A stretch of DNA of 64,000 nt from Cryoendolithus antarcticus (lineage: Eukaryota > Ascomycota > Dothideomycetes > Cladosporiales > Cladosporiaceae). The notes beneath the pieces are model-generated. The model did no database searches. It saw only the letters and a program-made list of their open reading frames with translations, and was not told where the DNA came from. Made by a program: the position numbers and the translations under genes. Location of the stretch: positions 434,001 to 498,000 of the forward strand of contig NAJO01000032.1 of assembly GCA_002077065.1 (NCBI GenBank). Reading direction: 5' to 3'. Positions 24,474 through 33,275 of this stretch are shown here, in pieces; within the stretch, counting starts at the first letter, position 1; the number at the start of each line of letters is the position of its first letter.

Positions 24474-27035
24474 ATGCCCTCCCACCTCACCCGCCAGGTG
24501 TTTCGCGCCATCGTCGCCAATGAGCCCATTGTCTCAAGAGGATGCCTACGAAGGTTACACACGGCCAACACGAGGACTACTCTCAATGGCTCGCGACATG
24601 TCACGAGGCAGAGGAGCTCTCCTCGGGTCTATGGAGAAGAGCAAAGAAGAACCCTCTTCGGCCTGAGCCTGTTTCGCTCGAAACCACCCCGAGACTCCAA
24701 GGATGTCAACTACGAGCCCGGCATCGAGAAGATGATGGAGTACGCCAAGATGGAACGTATGCGAGCTCGTCTACCACCTGTCGAAGATATCATCCAGGCC
24801 TGGCAACAATTCATTGGCGTCAAAAAGGGTAAACGGGACAGGATACAGGACACGCAAGCCGTCCTGCTTCTGCAGACTCTTCGGTACTTGAGACGAGAGG
24901 CAGAGTCACAGGGTGAAGCTGTAGCGCTGGACAAGGAGGTGCTGCTTCGAGCTGCTAAGAGGACGAGTCTCGAGCCCGTTGCGCAGAACGCTGTGTATAT
25001 GGAGCTGGCTCGCGAGCTTCATGAGTGCTTGTCGGCATTGCCTTTGAGCGCTGAGAATAAGGTCTTGTCTTTTGAGTGGTATCTTGGTGCACTTTGCAGC
25101 AATGGGCAGACTCAGCAGGCGCAAGATCTGCTGCTTGATCAGGGTACAGCAGGGTTGAGACCGGATATTGACGTGGCCCAAGATGGGCTCGCGACACACG
25201 GTAGCTCAGCCATGCGTAGCATTACTCAGCAGCGCTTAGCTGTTCAGTGGGCCAGGATACTGAAAGGCTTCGCTCGCGAGCGGAATGAAGAGGGCCTATT
25301 TGCCACGCTCGCCGAGATGCGCGAGCTCGGGCTTGAAACCACGTCGAACAGAGTGGCTCAGGTCATGATCCGGCACCACATGCTCACTGATGATGTTGAT
25401 GCTGTCAAGCATTGGTGGAGTGTCCTGCTACCCCACGTCTTGGAAACTTCACAAGAGCGTGTAGACGATGAAGATCCAGAGAAAGTGCTGCGGCGCCTCT
25501 TGAGGTGGTGCCTGAAGACTGACAATATACAATTGGGACACAGCATCGTCAGAGATGTTGTGGACCGCCACCCGAGCAAGTATATCTGGGACTCTGTCTT
25601 CCTCTGGGCCGCGGGCACAAAGAAAAGCGTTGACGAGATCGGTCGCATGATGGACGTCATGGAGAGTGTGAATGAAAAGATCTCGAATCACCTCACAGGC
25701 GAACATCGATTCGCGGACATCACCACCATCAATCTTCTGGTTGAGTATGCTATCTCACAGAATGATCCCTACATGGCTGAGCGCTTTATCACTCTGGGTC
25801 AGCAACGTAACATTGAGCCCAATGCTAAGACCTTCACTCTGCAAATGGACTACCGTCTGAGTGTAGGCGACGTTGATGGCGCGCTGATAGCCTATAAGCA
25901 CCTACAGTCATCCGACACCCAATCCTACACCGGCGATGTCGCTGCTGTCAATCGCTTGATCGTCGCACTATGCGGCTCAAAGCGCCACGACTTTGACACG
26001 ATCATGAACGTTGCGGCAGATCTATCAGACCGCTCTGCGCGCTTCGAGCCCATCACAGTCTCCACACTGAGCATGCTGCATCTCTCCCGCGATGAGATCC
26101 ACGATGTCGCAGACCTGCTAAACACACATGCCTACAGCTACTCGTCTGCCGAACGTATCTTGATCCGCAAAAACCTCATCGCCTTCAGCCTGGATCTCAA
26201 AACGCAAACGTCTCGTGCTTGGGACACATACACTCTCCTCCGCAGCATCTTCGACGAGATGCCTCGCTCCGAGCGCACAGACCTCATGCTCTCCTTCTTC
26301 GCGCGCCACAGACCTGACATGGCCGTCCACGTCTTCCAGCACATGCGCGCGCACTCCCGCGAGGACACCATCCCGAATGCCTCCACCTACATCTCAGCTT
26401 TCAGCGGCTGTGCGAAGCTGAAAGACCTAGAGAGTCTGGAAGTCGTGCATAACCAGCTCAAGTTGGATTACAATCTAGACGTCACGACGACTATGCGTAA
26501 TAGCTTGATGCTATCTTACACCGCCTGTGAGATGCCGAGACGGGCGCTAGACTTCTGGGATGAGATTGTAGCGAGCAGGGAGGGACCAAGTGTGAGTTCT
26601 GTGCATGCCGCGCTTAGGGCGTGCGAGAAGAGTCCTTTCGGCGACTTGAAGGCACGGGATATCTGGGCTCGATTGCGAAGGAATCGCATCGAGCTCTCCA
26701 CAGACCTTTGCGCTTCGTATATAGCCGCCTTGGCTGGGAACGGCGACAACGAGCTCGCTATCTCTGCACTCGAGGAAGCCGTCGAGAAAGGCGAGGTCAG
26801 CCTCGGTAGCGCGAAGATCGCGAGAGACGGCGGTGTCGGCGAGCCTGTGGACGGTGGTGCGCTGGTGCTAGGAAGTCTGTATAGTGCTGCGCCGGGGCAG
26901 GTGAAGCAGCAGGAGATTGAGGCTTGGGCTAAGGAGCATCAGCCGGAGGTTTGGGAACGGATTGAGGAGGTAGGCTGGGAGGAGGATGAAAATGGGATGA
27001 GAGCTGTCAGGGTCGAGAGGGGCGTGAAGCCTTGA
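24474..27035 (+). CDS. Mitochondrial pentatricopeptide-repeat (PPR) protein
   Basis: A single frame of 853 residues. The N-terminus is basic and free of acidic residues (MPSHLTRQVFRAIVAN, CLRRLHTANTRTTLNGSRH), as in a mitochondrial presequence. The body is an array of helical hairpins of about 35 residues with PPR character, for example PNAKTFTLQMDYRLSVGDVD, PNASTYISAFSGCAKLKDLE and VSSVHAALRACEKS; these usually bind organellar RNA. The LFGLSLFRSKPPRDSK and YEPGIEKMMEYAK region near residues 60-90 resembles fungal Cya5/CIA84-like proteins that act in maturation or translation of mitochondrial mRNAs or complex I assembly. The exact target cannot be told. The neighbour on the other side of the short promoter is bS18m, in line with a role in mitochondrial gene expression. 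Confidence 0.86.
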   Translation: MPSHLTRQVFRAIVANEPIVSRGCLRRLHTANTRTTLNGSRHVTRQRSSPRVYGEEQRRTLFGLSLFRSKPPRDSKDVNYEPGIEKMMEYAKMERMRARLPPVEDIIQAWQQFIGVKKGKRDRIQDTQAVLLLQTLRYLRREAESQGEAVALDKEVLLRAAKRTSLEPVAQNAVYMELARELHECLSALPLSAENKVLSFEWYLGALCSNGQTQQAQDLLLDQGTAGLRPDIDVAQDGLATHGSSAMRSITQQRLAVQWARILKGFARERNEEGLFATLAEMRELGLETTSNRVAQVMIRHHMLTDDVDAVKHWWSVLLPHVLETSQERVDDEDPEKVLRRLLRWCLKTDNIQLGHSIVRDVVDRHPSKYIWDSVFLWAAGTKKSVDEIGRMMDVMESVNEKISNHLTGEHRFADITTINLLVEYAISQNDPYMAERFITLGQQRNIEPNAKTFTLQMDYRLSVGDVDGALIAYKHLQSSDTQSYTGDVAAVNRLIVALCGSKRHDFDTIMNVAADLSDRSARFEPITVSTLSMLHLSRDEIHDVADLLNTHAYSYSSAERILIRKNLIAFSLDLKTQTSRAWDTYTLLRSIFDEMPRSERTDLMLSFFARHRPDMAVHVFQHMRAHSREDTIPNASTYISAFSGCAKLKDLESLEVVHNQLKLDYNLDVTTTMRNSLMLSYTACEMPRRALDFWDEIVASREGPSVSSVHAALRACEKSPFGDLKARDIWARLRRNRIELSTDLCASYIAALAGNGDNELAISALEEAVEKGEVSLGSAKIARDGGVGEPVDGGALVLGSLYSAAPGQVKQQEIEAWAKEHQPEVWERIEEVGWEEDENGMRAVRVERGVKP

Positions 27036-27548
27036 CATCCTGTGTCTTGCGTGTCAGAGCTGCTGCTTTCGACCTATTCACTACAAGCAATGGTCCGTGG
27101 ATGCAAATCCAGCAAGCGGCCGGAAGGCCAACAACCCAGCGTTGTATGATCACGTGCCGGTTCCAAATGCGGTTACTGCTGTGAAAGTTAAATAAGACGG
27201 CACAAGTCGCTTCCCGGGACCATAACCCAGAACACTCTCCACAGCCACACTTTTCGGGTTTTCCGGGCCACGCTATACTAGATCGGCCTCCCGGCCCATC
27301 CGGACCGCGCCGCAGCCGTCTTTTGTGCCAATAGGAACTCGCACAGGAGGCAGGTCCTCTCGGTCTACGCAATGAAATTGCGCATCAAGTACAGAGATTC
27401 GATAGACATTACCTAGTTGCCTTGTTCACGTCGGTCGAGCATATGAACCCTTCGATCCCAAGTGCTATAGACATGGCATTCTCTGAACACTACCTCCTTC
27501 GCGGCACTCCTACAACACTTGTACTCAAACACTCCAAAGTACCAACGC
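27036..27548. other. Intergenic region before the microprotein array
   Basis: Holds the PPR gene's 3' flank and the first microprotein promoter. No other gene was seen. Confidence 0.6.
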
Positions 27549-27858
27549 ATGATGGATAGAGATGGTCTGGTCCAGCTAGTGTTCGAATTGATTGCAAGTC
27601 TGCTTGGCATTGGAGCTATATGGATCACTTGGAAAGCTGCTCGAGGTATGCTACTTCGCATTAATCGTTCCTCGGCACAAGGACTGACTACTAACGATCG
27701 TCCAATCAGGACACTTTGCCCGAGTCCATCAATCAACACCGCTTCTGCCGCTTCACACCCTGATGGACCGCACCTTGCCAGGCCACCGATTGCGAATGCT
27801 CCTGGAGATTGATAGTCGGAATCGCATACCGCCGTACCTCGATCGATCGATCTCCTAG
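27549..27858 (+). CDS. Single-pass membrane microprotein, family copy A
   Basis: Exons 27549-27645 and 27710-27858 around a 64-bp intron (donor GTATGC, branch-like CTGAC and CTAAC, acceptor ATCAG) that splits a Gly codon after its first base. The product is 81 residues from the first of two adjacent ATGs, or 80 from the second, which matches the start of copies B and C. A short acidic N-terminus is followed by one hydrophobic helix (LVQLVFELIASLLGIGAIW) ending in TWKAAR, then a second-exon tail with TPLLPLHTLMDR and GHRLRMLLEID. The C-terminus is longer and more divergent than in B and C (RNRIPPYLDRSIS). It is one of three homologous tandem genes; I do not recognise the family. By the positive-inside rule the tail would face the cytosol or matrix. 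Confidence 0.8.
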
Positions 27859-28602
27859 TCTCGATCGACAGTACAACTCGAACATCCTTAAGCAGAACAG
27901 ACGGCGGCAGACTCCGAGCACCACCAGCAGCAGACGCCCTCGAGTCGACCAGAGGATCCATACTATCGTGCATATTGGGACGTCTTGGGTCGTGTTCAAC
28001 GATCATGGAGTGCGCCTCTTTGACTGGAACCTGTGAACGCTATGCCGCGTCCGTTGCACAGCGCGCTGCCACCTCGACGACCTTCAGCTCGGCTCAAGCA
28101 ACGGACAGCCATTCAGGAGAAGCGCAGTCTATATCATGTAGACTTTTACAACGTCGTGCAGGCATCGAGCGGACTCGATCGGATTCGATGTGGTCCTAGA
28201 GTCCGAGAACAGTTCCTGACATAACACTGCATAGCGTACATCAACAATAAAGAATCAAATCCCTACCAGCGTATATCATCTCCCGTATGGGTTTGTTGAA
28301 GACGTTCCGCATCTCGAGATGCTCTGAAACAGACGCTCAAGAGCCTGAGGCACTATAGAATCGTAAGGCTGGGAGTGGAGCGCATCCTAAGCTCCTTCCT
28401 ATTCGAGCGTTGGCAGTTCGGCCTGACACACGAGTGCACGGTCACCAAGGACCAACCTGATGTGCAGTCGCAGCAGAGTGATGGTGGTGACTATAGATGA
28501 GGGAATCGTGGCTCCGTGTCTTGATCCTCCTTTCCTCACCTCTCCTCCCGAAATATACGACGATTCCGCAACATCGTGCGAATGCTTGTGAACGAACGTA
28601 CC
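27859..28602. other. Spacer between microprotein copies A and B
   Basis: About 740 bp without a supported gene. It does not visibly align with the spacers of the other copies, so similarity among the copies is limited to coding sequence. Confidence 0.55.
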
Positions 28603-28888
28603 ATGGACGCAAATACCCTGGTCCAGCTACTGTTCGGGTTGATCGCTAGCGTGCTTGGCATTGCGGCTATCTGGACGGCTTGGAAAGCCGCAAAAGGTCC
28701 GTCTGAGCACACACTACCTTGATCATGAGCCGGGAACATCACTGACACAGGACTATGTAGGCCATTTCACTCAGTCTCAGGGCGCAACACCACTTCTACC
28801 GCTGTACGAGCTACTGGATCGATCCTCGCCAGGCCATCGCCTACGCATGCTCCTTGAGATTGATAATGGAGGAGGGCGTACACTCTGA
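28603..28888 (+). CDS. Single-pass membrane microprotein, family copy B
   Basis: Exons 28603-28696 and 28761-28888, intron of 64 bp, phase 1 within the same Gly codon as in copies A and C. The donor is GTCCGT, weaker than GTATGC in the other two; the acceptor is TGTAG with a CACTGACAC branch-like site. The product has 73 residues: MDANTLVQLLFGLIAS helix region, a WTAWKAAKG border, then TPLLPLYELLDRSS and PGHRLRMLLEIDNGGG. Against copy C the first exon has 27 of 31 residues identical, with 13 codons differing only silently, which shows protein-level selection. No signal peptidase site is evident after the helix. Function unknown. Confidence 0.83.
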
Positions 28889-30714
28889 TCGGAGTAGACG
28901 CTTGGCCAGCAGCACGTCCAGCGTCTGTCACAGCTGTACTCTGATCATGATCATGGACGCATTGAGCAACAGCGATTGGTCGGCATGAGAGCCATGCGTG
29001 GGTGTTTGTGCAAGGTGTTAAAAAGGAGCGACGGGCAAGGCGCGGACGGAGCATGATCTTCGATGGGTGCAGATGTGGACCGAAGGTCAGAAATGAGTAC
29101 TTGTATCTATCATGTCAGAACCACGTAGCGCTATGATCTCTGATGCATCGCCGCAAGGGCTGTGGTCCGTAAGGCTTACATCTTGCTTGCGGCGCACGCG
29201 ACGTATGGAGAAGATGGACGCTCTTGAGTTCTGATCGGTCGCAACGTCGATCCTTTTAAGCCGCATTATAATCAGAGGGTGTTCGAGGTTTGACTCGATG
29301 CATTCGTCTATTCTGTCGTCGACCTAATACGACTGCAGTGATGGCTCGTCATTGCGGTCGGTACCAGGAACGCACCTATAGCTAGATCGATGTTGAGTAG
29401 GGTACGACGCAGTGACAGCACAAGGCCGCGCTGGTGAATCGTGAATAGGCGGACTCCATGGCGAAGCACGATCAATAACGACACAACGTGCGCAGGACTT
29501 ACTCGGAACCCGAGGCTGTCTTCAACCTGTAGGTAACGCTGCATCAAAGTGCTCTCTCGTATGCGCCATCGGCCTATTGTCAGGCGCTTGCGCCAGCCGT
29601 ATTGGCAAGAAAATATCGAGGACATATCGCAAGCTTTGCCACTCCTGCCCGCGAACGCCTAATGGTATCGTAGCTTGAAGCAATCATGGCACACGATCAA
29701 GCACCTATGTTTATCAGCCCGCGCTTGGACTTCAAAATAGCTATCATATCGGATAGGCGTGTCGGCCGGCTTCAAATCAGGCTGGCTGCTGGTCGCATAA
29801 CGGCATGTCCCCGTGTTCTGCTTCCTCCGGCAAGGTGCGCAGGAGTTTCTTGCTTGCGCTGCGGAGCATTAGTCGGAGGTCTGGGAGAGGGTGCATAGGT
29901 CGGGAGGGAGGGGGTTGAGTATTGGATAGGGCCAATTATGGCGAAGAAGGGGGCGGAGTCGTGATGGGACAGTACATACACTCGAGCAAAGTGTCGAATA
30001 CACCCAGGTGATCATCGTAGTGCCACTGGTCTTCAACACGAGTGCGTCAACATTGGTCGTCCATGCAGTGACTGGATGTGCCTGGGGCGCATGTGTTAGA
30101 CCTGCGTTCGGTGGTGCAAGTCGGGCTCGAGAGCCGATTATTTGGCATTAGTGGCCGTTACTGCGTTCGTCGACTTACCCAGCATTCTAGTGGCATCTCT
30201 CTCCTTCGGTCCATGCAGTGCCCGCGAGTTCCAAGCATGCCATGTCACATGATGACAAGCTAACATCTGCTCGCTCATTGATAGAAACAAATAATGCCCA
30301 GACCGCCGGGTTGAGGGCCGCCACAAGGTCAAGCCACAGCTAGACTTGCCAGATACCTTAATCAGCGTGAGGGAGAAAGGTGGCGGTGCATTTCCATGGC
30401 TTCGAACTTCGAGAATGGACGACGATCACACCAGCGGTAGATGTACTTCGAGGCCAGGCTGCTGAGTTGGTCGCGCCATTCTCGACGTAGGGACTCACCT
30501 CTGTCGCGGACGCCCCTCGGCGTACTTGCCGGAAGTCATCAAGTTGAGGAGCAAGATAGATGGCTACCCAAACACGTTGGTAGGCCCGCTAACATGTCAG
30601 CTACGCCGCAGCTTCCAGTACAGTTTGTTCCTCTCTCTCTCAACCTCGAAGAACAAGTCTAAATCTGCGACTCTCTTCTATATACCCTCATCGACTCAAG
30701 TCCAGTCTAGCAAC
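28889..30714. other. Spacer between microprotein copies B and C
   Basis: About 1.8 kb, roughly double the A-B spacing. It contains unrelated short open frames, including a minus-strand ATG frame at 29308-29625 without motifs. No clear fourth copy could be read. Confidence 0.5.
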
Positions 30715-31001
30715 ATGGACGCCAACACCCTCGTACAACTGCTATTCGGCCTGATCGCAAGTCTACTAGGCATTGGAGCTATATGGATGGCTTGGAAAGC
30801 CGCACAGGGTATGCTTCTCTCTCAACACAGCGACGAAGTGGATTTACGACTGGACTGACATATTCTTGACTAGGTCGCTTCGCCCAGACCCGTCAGACAA
30901 CACCACTCCTCCCACTGTACGAGCTGCTCGATCGATCCTCCTCGAGTCGCCGTCTGCGAATGATGCTCGAAATTGAAGACGGAGGGCATATACTTCGATA
31001 G
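30715..31001 (+). CDS. Single-pass membrane microprotein, family copy C
   Basis: Exons 30715-30808 and 30874-31001 with a 65-bp intron (donor GTATGC, branch-like GGACTGAC, acceptor GACTAG) in the same phase and codon as the other copies; 73 residues. The hydrophobic segment is about residues 6-26, closed by WMAWKAAQGRF. The second exon encodes QTTPLLPLYELLDRSS, then RRLRMMLEIEDGG, an amphipathic, Leu-rich tail. The 5' leader before the ATG is pyrimidine-rich with TATATA at about 30680-30685, which could serve as a core promoter element. The next gene, GatB, is on the other strand and converges from the right. Confidence 0.84.
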
Positions 31002-31481
31002 GCGTAGGGCACTTCGTCGGCGAAAGATTTGGAGTCGACCACGGGTTACATTTCCGGCTCATGCCAGACGGATCGAACACCGGTGATCGAATGTAACGGC
31101 GGAGATGCCCGGATCCTGGTTGATTGTGCGCAAGGGAGGGCTCTTTGACGAAGAGTGAACGTTGTCGGTTGGGTAGAAGAGCAAGACGTCGGCGTCTGGT
31201 GTATGTAACTCGTATGTCACGATTATGTAAGGCGCAGCACTGTCAATCCAGCTAGACTAGTAAATATTGAGCCATGAGTAAGCTCCAGTCGCGTTGCCGA
31301 GTATGCTGGACGTTGACACTTGTGCTTCCGATAAGTTCGAGGCGCATCTGGACGGTCAAGTGATCTGCAATCGTCCCATTTGGTGACAGGTCGTTGACCA
31401 GTCCACACAATCAAGTGTGGGATCGATGTTGTCCATCATACCGCCAGTGTTCCCAGTCCGGGACCCGGTAGCAGTGGCTAT
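31002..31481. other. Convergent 3' region
   Basis: Between microprotein copy C and the stop of GatB. No gene was seen. Confidence 0.6.
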
Positions 31482-33275
31482 TCACTCTGCCAGCATTCGC
31501 TCAACCACCTCTTTCGCCTTTCCAGGCTCGATTGTTCCCTCTTCTCCCCTTCGCACCATCTGCCCGACGAACCACATGATCTTCCCTTTCTGTCCCTTCT
31601 CTTTGACAGCAGCGACCATGCCAGGGTTCTCGTCCATGATCGTACGAGCCAACTCAGTGTACTCGTCGTCCGACAGTGGGCGGAGCAGAAGTCCCAAATC
31701 GTAAATCAGATCGCCAACTCTGCGTGAAGTCGAATCATCGTTAGAATACTCGAGCAGTTGCTTTGCCGTACGGGAGGTGATTTCGCCGCGCGTCAGGTAC
31801 GCAATGATGTCAGCCAGATCGATGGGGTATATCTTCAGATCGGACCAGCATAGGTTGTTAGCTGTCAAGAAACCGCCAAGCTCGTGCAGGACCCAATTGC
31901 CAGCCAATTTGCCAAGCTTCAAGTCGTCGACATCGAGCAAGCGGGGCTGTAGTAGCTCGACTGTCGCCTCCATGTACTCCAGACGATCGCCGTCGTCCAG
32001 TGCGACGATCGTACGGGCATCCTTCTCGGTTACTCCATACTCGCGCTGCACCCGTTCGACAGTGGTATCAGGCAACTCAGGCAGCCTGTCGCGCAAGTGA
32101 TCAATCAGATCGTTCCCAATGATCAACGGAGGTAAGTCAGCATCCGGCATGTATCGATAGTCGACTTCGCCTTCCTTGCCACGAAGCCGAGTCGTCTCGG
32201 TCGATCCCAGTGACCAGCCACGGGTTTCGCCGGCAATGATTCCACCTGCTTCCAGTACTGAGATCTGACGGTCACGTTCTGCAACGATCGCATCCTCGAC
32301 AGCCTTGAAAGAGCTGAGATTCTTGATCTCCGTTCGTTGACCGAGACCAGCCACGCCACTGTAAGACGAGCTTCCGATCGTCCCACGCTGTCGCACTGAA
32401 ACGTTCACATCTGCTCGCAAGCCACCCAACTCCATGCCAGTAGTGCACGCATCGACTGCTTTCAGTACACTCTGCAGCTTGCGCACCACGGCAGCTGCCG
32501 TCTGCGGCGAGTGAATGTGCGGCAACGTGATGATCTCGATGAGCGGATGACCAGAGCGATTGTAGTCAATGTGATAGGATGATGGCGGATGATGCGTGGT
32601 CTTCGCTGTGTCCTGCTCCATCTGTATCTGCTTGATGCCGATCAGCAGACTTCGTCCGCCGAGCAGATCCTCTTCAGGCACACCATCTTCCGCACTCAGC
32701 CTGATGGCGCCGTCCTTGGCAAACGGCTGATAGTACTGCGTGATCTGGTATCCATTCGGTTGATCCCAGTGGAAGTAATGCTTACGATCCCAGCCGCTCT
32801 TCCTTTGTATATCACAGCCGAGTGCGACGGCAGCTCGCAGTGCTGGCAAAAGCGTAGCTACCTGGAACTGAGGCTGAGCACCAGGCAGCGCAGCGTCAAA
32901 AGCTGCGACATTACTGTTCGGCACTGCAGTGCTGTCTCCCGATGCGGCAGTAGCAGAGGAGAAGAGCTTGCAAGCCGAGTTCAGCTCCGCATGAACTTCG
33001 ATCCCAACGGTGAGCTCCCACTTCTGCAGCCGCGCAGTGACTGCATTATCTCGTCTTAAGCCAGTACCAGCTTTGGCATCGGCCTTCTTCCGCTTCGCTT
33101 CATCCTTTAGGTGCTTGCGGAGGGGTACCGCGTTCGGAGGGGGTGCGGTTGACACCTGCAACCCGCGCGACTGGAGCCACTTCGACACGTAGCATGGCCG
33201 GGTGGTGTATCCAGGCCTTGTGTACAGCGCTGGCAGGGCTTTGAGCGATCGAAGTCGCACGGATGGTACGCTCAT
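31482..33275 (-). CDS. PET112: Mitochondrial glutamyl-tRNA(Gln) amidotransferase subunit B
   Basis: The B subunit of the mitochondrial GatFAB/GatCAB enzyme, which converts Glu-tRNA(Gln) to Gln-tRNA(Gln); it activates the misacylated Glu and carries ammonia from the A subunit. A single frame of 597 residues from ATG 33275. A basic presequence (about 1-40, with RPGYTTRPCYVSKWLQSRG) is followed by a Lys-rich linker. The GatB/E catalytic domain starts at about 86 with ELTVGIEVHAEL and includes CKLFSSA, KHYFHWDQPNGYQITQYY, SYHIDYNRSGHPLIEI, GMELGGLRADVNVS and RTEIKNLSSFKA, all family hallmarks. The C-terminal Yqey-like tRNA-binding tail is present (NLCWSDLKI.. LTRGEITSRTAKQLL). Length is normal for fungal proteins. 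Confidence 0.97.
   Translation of the reverse strand: MSVPSVRLRSLKALPALYTRPGYTTRPCYVSKWLQSRGLQVSTAPPPNAVPLRKHLKDEAKRKKADAKAGTGLRRDNAVTARLQKWELTVGIEVHAELNSACKLFSSATAASGDSTAVPNSNVAAFDAALPGAQPQFQVATLLPALRAAVALGCDIQRKSGWDRKHYFHWDQPNGYQITQYYQPFAKDGAIRLSAEDGVPEEDLLGGRSLLIGIKQIQMEQDTAKTTHHPPSSYHIDYNRSGHPLIEIITLPHIHSPQTAAAVVRKLQSVLKAVDACTTGMELGGLRADVNVSVRQRGTIGSSSYSGVAGLGQRTEIKNLSSFKAVEDAIVAERDRQISVLEAGGIIAGETRGWSLGSTETTRLRGKEGEVDYRYMPDADLPPLIIGNDLIDHLRDRLPELPDTTVERVQREYGVTEKDARTIVALDDGDRLEYMEATVELLQPRLLDVDDLKLGKLAGNWVLHELGGFLTANNLCWSDLKIYPIDLADIIAYLTRGEITSRTAKQLLEYSNDDSTSRRVGDLIYDLGLLLRPLSDDEYTELARTIMDENPGMVAAVKEKGQKGKIMWFVGQMVRRGEEGTIEPGKAKEVVERMLAE

Follow-up and report, generated by a model that had tools for sequence, protein, structure and literature searches.

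A family of predicted one-helix membrane microproteins encoded by intron-containing genes in duplicated blocks of the Cryoendolithus antarcticus genome

Phospholamban and sarcolipin are small one-helix regulators in animals, and Ost4 is a small membrane protein of yeast. The proteins considered here are likewise short, have one helix and carry no enzyme domain, although the likeness is one of size and shape only, no match to a sequence family having been obtained. In the parts of the literature open to our search no description of such a microprotein family was found, and Pfam, NCBIfam and the PDB returned no family that fits (no profile above its curated cutoff). The PDB search gave one chain, at E 0.42; the best weak match in Pfam, DUF202 (E 0.0094; 16.8 bits against a cutoff of 23.4), was obtained with 2 of 12 members, lies mainly in the helix, shares a hydrophobic helix with the family and was treated as chance. 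Judged by sequence, this is an orphan family of a familiar general kind, whose relatives turned up in just two further rock fungi. Three of its genes, here called A, B and C, lie in the window, by which we mean the whole stretch of 64,000 nucleotides that was analysed.

27549..27858, plus strand: microprotein gene A, 81 aa, with an intron of 64 nt at 27646-27709
28603..28888, plus strand: microprotein gene B, 73 aa, with an intron of 64 nt at 28697-28760
30715..31001, plus strand: microprotein gene C, 73 aa, with an intron of 65 nt at 30809-30873

A, B and C are almost certainly genuine protein-coding genes that undergo splicing, and they belong to a small family known to date from few fungi. 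From the conserved frame we infer that the copies are spliced and translated. The first-pass annotation had proposed three plus-strand genes with homologous products of 73-81 residues, each interrupted by an intron of 64-65 nt after the first base of the same Gly codon; both points were re-derived from GT-AG gene models, with the same split codon in A, B and C. The probable start of A is its second Met, at 27552, which aligns with the start of the other copies and leaves the first Met as an extra residue. A branch-site match, ACTAA, lies about 20 nt upstream of the acceptor in the intron of A, and a match at about the same distance is present in that of B, whose donor, GTCCGT, is non-consensus. 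Between B and C, exon 1 has 27 of 31 identical residues, 13 codons with silent differences only and 4 with a changed residue, exactly as annotated on recount. The same exons differ at 20 nucleotides, 15 of them third positions of the plus frame, and when 20 changes were placed at random, 4 or fewer residue changes resulted in 0 of 20,000 simulations. The introns and 150-nt flanks, annotated as unlike, are so by our comparisons, with none of nine among A, B and C above the maximum of 200 shuffles (the nearest being the A-C introns, 0.66 against a shuffle maximum of 0.66), and Rfam and tRNA scans of the window gave no match. It is barely credible that the coding signal belongs to the minus-strand ORF of 197 aa at 27413-28006, which overlaps copy A. 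This frame is open and its translation has mirror matches in B, C, D and E, the one in D running across the intron for 80 aligned residues without a stop. However, the mirror match in B contains an in-frame stop, those in C and E are confined to exon 1, and it is at the third positions of the plus frame that the changes between B and C cluster.

The genome was described, under the name Rachicladosporium antarcticum CCFEE 5527, as an assembly of 47.4 Mb in 267 contigs with 18,781 predicted genes (PMC5502844); the accessible text of PMC10739867 gives the renaming of this species to Cryoendolithus antarcticus. The assembly analysed here comprises 46,965,068 bases in 149 contigs and so differs somewhat from the published contig set. 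Searching all of it for matches to the DNA of A and to the proteins C, K, J and I, and scoring the best candidates, brought the family to at least 14 copies, 12 intact models and 2 decayed, at three places, each of which lies in two duplicated blocks. Beyond the window the copies are as follows.

Contig C105, L019:3958 and L019:6423: copies D and E
Contig C66, L020:3607 and L020:6787: copies F and G
Contig C66, L020 near 5298: decayed copy without a start codon, donor lost
Contig C82, L021:3671, L021:5197 and L021:6854: copies H, I and J
Contig C82, L022:3809, minus strand: copy K
Contig C117, L023:3940: copy M
Contig C117, L023 near 5579: decayed copy, frame broken in exon 1

A further match, at C63:798913 (E 0.03), was set aside: it reads as a frame with stops close by and without a helix, and a longer ORF of the same strand overlaps it. 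Three other stretches (L025-L027) held no extra copy at E 0.01. Donors and acceptors were picked by hand, guided by the conserved frame, and are GT and AG by construction; the evidence for splicing is that the frame is conserved only once the GT-AG stretch is removed. In all 12 models the intron has the same site, in phase 1 and at an offset of 94 bases from the start codon (97 for A, given its additional Met), and is 52-87 nt long. Nine of these introns are not a multiple of 3 and the other three contain an in-frame stop, so that in every model the conserved tail can be reached only by splicing. A YTRAY-type branch-site match about 13-24 nt before the acceptor is present in 11 of the 12, the intron of G having none; GT...AG ends, fungal length and branch-site matches together point to ordinary fungal introns. 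Upstream of the copies, no shared promoter words were found above shuffles. At L020:5902-6098, between the decayed copy and copy G, about 100 bases are directly repeated at 83% identity.

Three proteins in the databases match the family, B0A48_13440, B0A51_05660 and LTR95_011831, one per strain and all labelled "hypothetical protein"; they are spliced models of 73-84 aa. The first is copy C of C. antarcticus, letter for letter and with the same splice. B0A51_05660 (P0002), from Rachicladosporium sp. CCFEE 5018, is 79% identical to E and 74% to C, and LTR95_011831 (P0003), from Oleoguttula sp. CCFEE 5521, is 74% identical to copy I; both have the helix, border and tail of the window copies. A literature search for Oleoguttula together with CCFEE 5521 gave no match. 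The protein profile search scored 2900 candidates and kept the same three (P0003, copy C and P0002). Other fungi were compared at the protein level, C. antarcticus being the sole fungal genome searched as DNA. The other 11 intact copies of C. antarcticus were not returned from the protein database, an absence that is firm for copy B, itself a query, with respect to models of about its length, and less sure beyond B, given the word limit of the search and its length limit of about 46 to 147 residues. Copy A was returned by neither protein database search, and with one query region, from copy F, there was no candidate among longer protein models carrying the helix module. Thus, the annotated claim that conventional gene finding misses the family stands for most copies and fails for C. 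A conserved multi-copy family with 1 of its 12 intact copies returned is hardly visible in the protein database, probably because the products are short and their genes are split by an intron.

The copies fall into two subfamilies, which separate with support 100/99: a window type, A to E with P0002, of 73-81 residues, and an MDQDT type, F to M with P0003, of 83-85 residues. Although the intron site is the same in both, identity across this divide is 30-37% for K against A to E, 31-38% for P0003 against A to E and 29-45% for P0002 against F to M. Support for the inner branches of the tree is mostly weak, with 1 of 11 starred and 6 open, and gives little guide to the order of duplication within the subfamilies; copy H stands on a very long branch, and its tail is divergent. 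The tandem family of intron-containing one-helix microproteins that had been proposed from the window is supported, but it is wider than was claimed, with at least 14 copies and two subfamilies.

Each of the three places examined is present twice in the genome, as the alignment of C76 (the contig of the window) with C105, of C66 with C82 and of C82 with C117 indicates. The neighbours of the microprotein genes in the window, which match the PPR and GatB families in a family search, and a relic of one of them are:

24474..27035, plus strand: gene for a PPR-repeat protein of 853 aa, left neighbour, with a 91% identical counterpart on C105
31482..33275, minus strand: gene of the GatB family (Glu-tRNA(Gln) amidotransferase subunit B), right neighbour, with an 88% identical counterpart on C105
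29819..29964, plus strand: decayed relic derived from the PPR gene at 24474-27035 (its 3' end), between B and C and upstream of C

Between C76 and C105, dS is 0.61 for the PPR gene and 0.63 for the GatB gene. Elsewhere the neighbours are what we take to be RNA polymerase second-largest-subunit-like, proteasome Rpn3-like and kelch-like genes. The spacers of C76 and C105 (4446 and 3972 bases) gave 6 blastn matches at E of 1e-3 or lower, and all of them include the microprotein genes. The match between C and E extends into the 3' flank, over 30715-31457, so that C and E are positional counterparts. The spacers upstream of C and E, on the other side, are no more alike than shuffles (160 of 200 as high), nor are those between the PPR gene and A and between the PPR gene and D (187 of 200). 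Likewise, L022 (C82) and L023 (C117) gave two matches, the kelch-like gene and exon 1 of K/M, exon 2 being without a DNA match. The footprint is less informative for L020 and L021, where alignment extends over much more of the spacer.

The PPR relic upstream of C has a local score of 86, where 200 dinucleotide shuffles reach at most 40, and a similar relic upstream of copy E, at L019:5635-5730, has a score of 102, with shuffles reaching at most 43. Compared with each other, the two reach a borderline score of 39, equalled or exceeded in 1 of 200 shuffles. It seems, as the simple reading of these sequences, that one tandem duplication carried the PPR tail together with a microprotein gene before the blocks parted; alternatively, there may have been two separate events. 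That broken pieces of genes exist here is plain from the relic beside C, and exon 1 of C, if unspliced, falls within an open frame of 110 aa. Still, it is very improbable that the copies themselves are broken pieces of a larger gene or mobile element instead of free-standing genes: copies at different places have a common start, the databases hold spliced models of 73-84 aa in three strains, direct repeats above 21 nt within 26900-31500 are confined to the gene copies, and of 39 pattern matches in viral contigs none was confirmed as a viral relative.

As to the origin of the blocks, their dS of about 0.6 at the place of the window is consistent with whole-genome duplication or with a hybrid origin. 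A duplication has been suggested for C. antarcticus and another large-genome rock fungus in the accessible part of PMC12560822, which also describes a genome of 24.6 Mb for Rachicladosporium sp. CGMCC 3.30118 and the use of RNAi knock-down in that fungus; in the available portions of PMC11412873 and PMC7767062 there is nothing that decides how the genome was duplicated. P0003, from Oleoguttula, is 74% identical to copy I, but copy I is 63% identical to its counterpart F (support 90/84). That P0003 is closer to I than F is gives a weak hint of a hybrid origin or, alternatively, of a misassigned genus for the strain.

The first-pass annotation read the pattern in exon 1 as selection on the protein and suggested dN/dS between copies as a check. 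We used pN/pS, since dS approaches or exceeds saturation in many pairs, and found it below 1 in all 31 within-subfamily pairs, pointing to purifying selection on the spliced frame. The values are 0.21-0.38 in the 10 window-type pairs (0.23-0.38 among A, B and C) and 0.28-0.62 in the 21 MDQDT-type pairs. Exon 1 has a lower pN/pS than exon 2 in 10 of 10 window-type and 18 of 21 MDQDT-type pairs, or 28 of 31 overall, the pairs not being independent and the exon cut falling one codon early in pairs with A, with its extra Met. In 11 chosen comparisons, the simulations at or below the observed change numbered 0, 216, 0, 0, 2, 0, 57, 0, 50, 155 and 0 of 20,000, the weakest comparison being A-B exon 1. 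The values for A, B and C, the rarity of so little change in the simulations and the footprint of the genes between duplicated blocks all favour the annotated selection. By these measures the microprotein genes are constrained, yet less so than their neighbours, as pN/pS is 0.28-0.34 for C-D, C-E and B-D against 0.11 for the PPR gene and 0.17 for the GatB gene. This faster divergence would fit a conflict-type family, concerned with self/non-self recognition, drive or killer-like activity and kept by turnover and not by a housekeeping role, as would the differing copy number between blocks (3 against 2; 3, one decayed, against 3; 1 against 2, one decayed). We regard such a family as decidedly doubtful, because no pair has a pN/pS above 1 and the helix is well conserved.

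The two exons correspond to two modules, of about 31 and 45 residues. In exon 1 the module comprises a brief acidic N-terminus and a single predicted membrane helix; in exon 2 it comprises a basic border and a tail that is divergent yet keeps a conserved hydrophobic-acidic motif, RLRMLLEID or RRTMYMLEDIE (RxxMLLEID / RRxxYMLEDIE); the annotated sequence of acidic start, hydrophobic helix, basic border and conserved tail motif was recovered in the sequences. All 12 proteins have one hydrophobic segment, with a Kyte-Doolittle mean of 1.9-2.6 (next best at most 0.4), a net charge of -1 or -2 before it and of +1 to +4 in the 15 residues after it. On these simple scales each has one helix with basic residues on the presumed cytosolic side, and the product is very probably a single-pass membrane protein. 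The basic side of a membrane helix faces the cytosol under the positive-inside rule, which together with the charge pattern predicts that the N-terminus is outside and the C-terminus inside; an acidic N-terminus outside and a basic tail in the cytosol are thus likely. AlphaFold predicts, for the three database proteins, a helix over residues 3-38, with block-mean pLDDT of 86-95 over residues 1-30, and is unsure beyond residue 30 (block means 42-56).

A similar anatomy is known from Tom20-type anchors, in which a short hydrophobic helix is followed by basic residues, and the helix with its basic border in 12 of 12 models is compatible with a signal-anchor protein of the mitochondrial outer membrane, the helix and basic residues anchoring a small cytosol-facing tail. 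Moreover, the window copies lie beside genes that match the PPR and GatB families, whose fungal members are for the most part mitochondrial. In fungi, however, little weight can be put on gene neighbourhood, and the neighbours at the two other places, by our assignment RNA polymerase-, Rpn3- and kelch-like, do not look mitochondrial. Such an anchor is, in our judgement, unlikely.

The helix of a single-pass protein of predicted outside-to-inside orientation may also have a packing face. Positions 12, 15, 16, 19, 22 and 26 are small in 13, 14, 14, 13, 12 and 13 of 14 sequences and form a stripe along one side of the helix; position 21, outside the stripe, is small in 8 of 14, and copies A and E interrupt the stripe with Glu at 12 and 19. 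At 100 degrees, the small-residue moment was reached by 1337 of 50,000 column shuffles over positions 7-27 and 436 over positions 6-28, and at 105 degrees by 265 and 210, respectively; at 95 degrees it is not significant (10,947 and 6041). Within single sequences, the shuffle fraction at 105 degrees ranges from 0.0002 to 0.19 and exceeds 0.05 in 4 of 14. Column-entropy permutation over three position ranges, a weak test, gave 360-1504 of 20,000 at 95 and 100 degrees, more than 6000 at 105 and more than 17,000 at 110. This moderately significant, angle-dependent signal lends modest support to a small-residue face that would allow tight helix packing.

On this reading the protein probably inserts once, with its N-terminus outside and its tail in the cytosol; the helix would pack through its small-residue face, either with itself or with a bigger membrane protein, and the tail, judging from its conserved motif, may dock a cytosolic partner. 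In action it would be an adaptor or regulatory subunit, the copies differing mainly in the tail, a proposal drawn from anatomy that we believe and doubt in equal measure. The best explanation as a whole, joining a real spliced family, single-pass topology, helix packing and a docking tail on an adaptor, has in our view about an even chance of being right. Such genes should interest specialists in fungal small proteins and, without a function, leave the wider picture unchanged; their fixed intron site and two exon modules make a search pattern for Dothideomycetes, which could show whether genes of this kind are common there but unseen. Among known systems, the most far-reaching comparison is with the regulin microproteins of animals. 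A fungal counterpart to these one-helix regulators, with a common docking helix and differing cytosolic tails, is suggested by analogy and is improbable; if it were real, the copies would link distinct signals, one each, to a single membrane pump or channel, perhaps in the service of a life in cold, dry rock.
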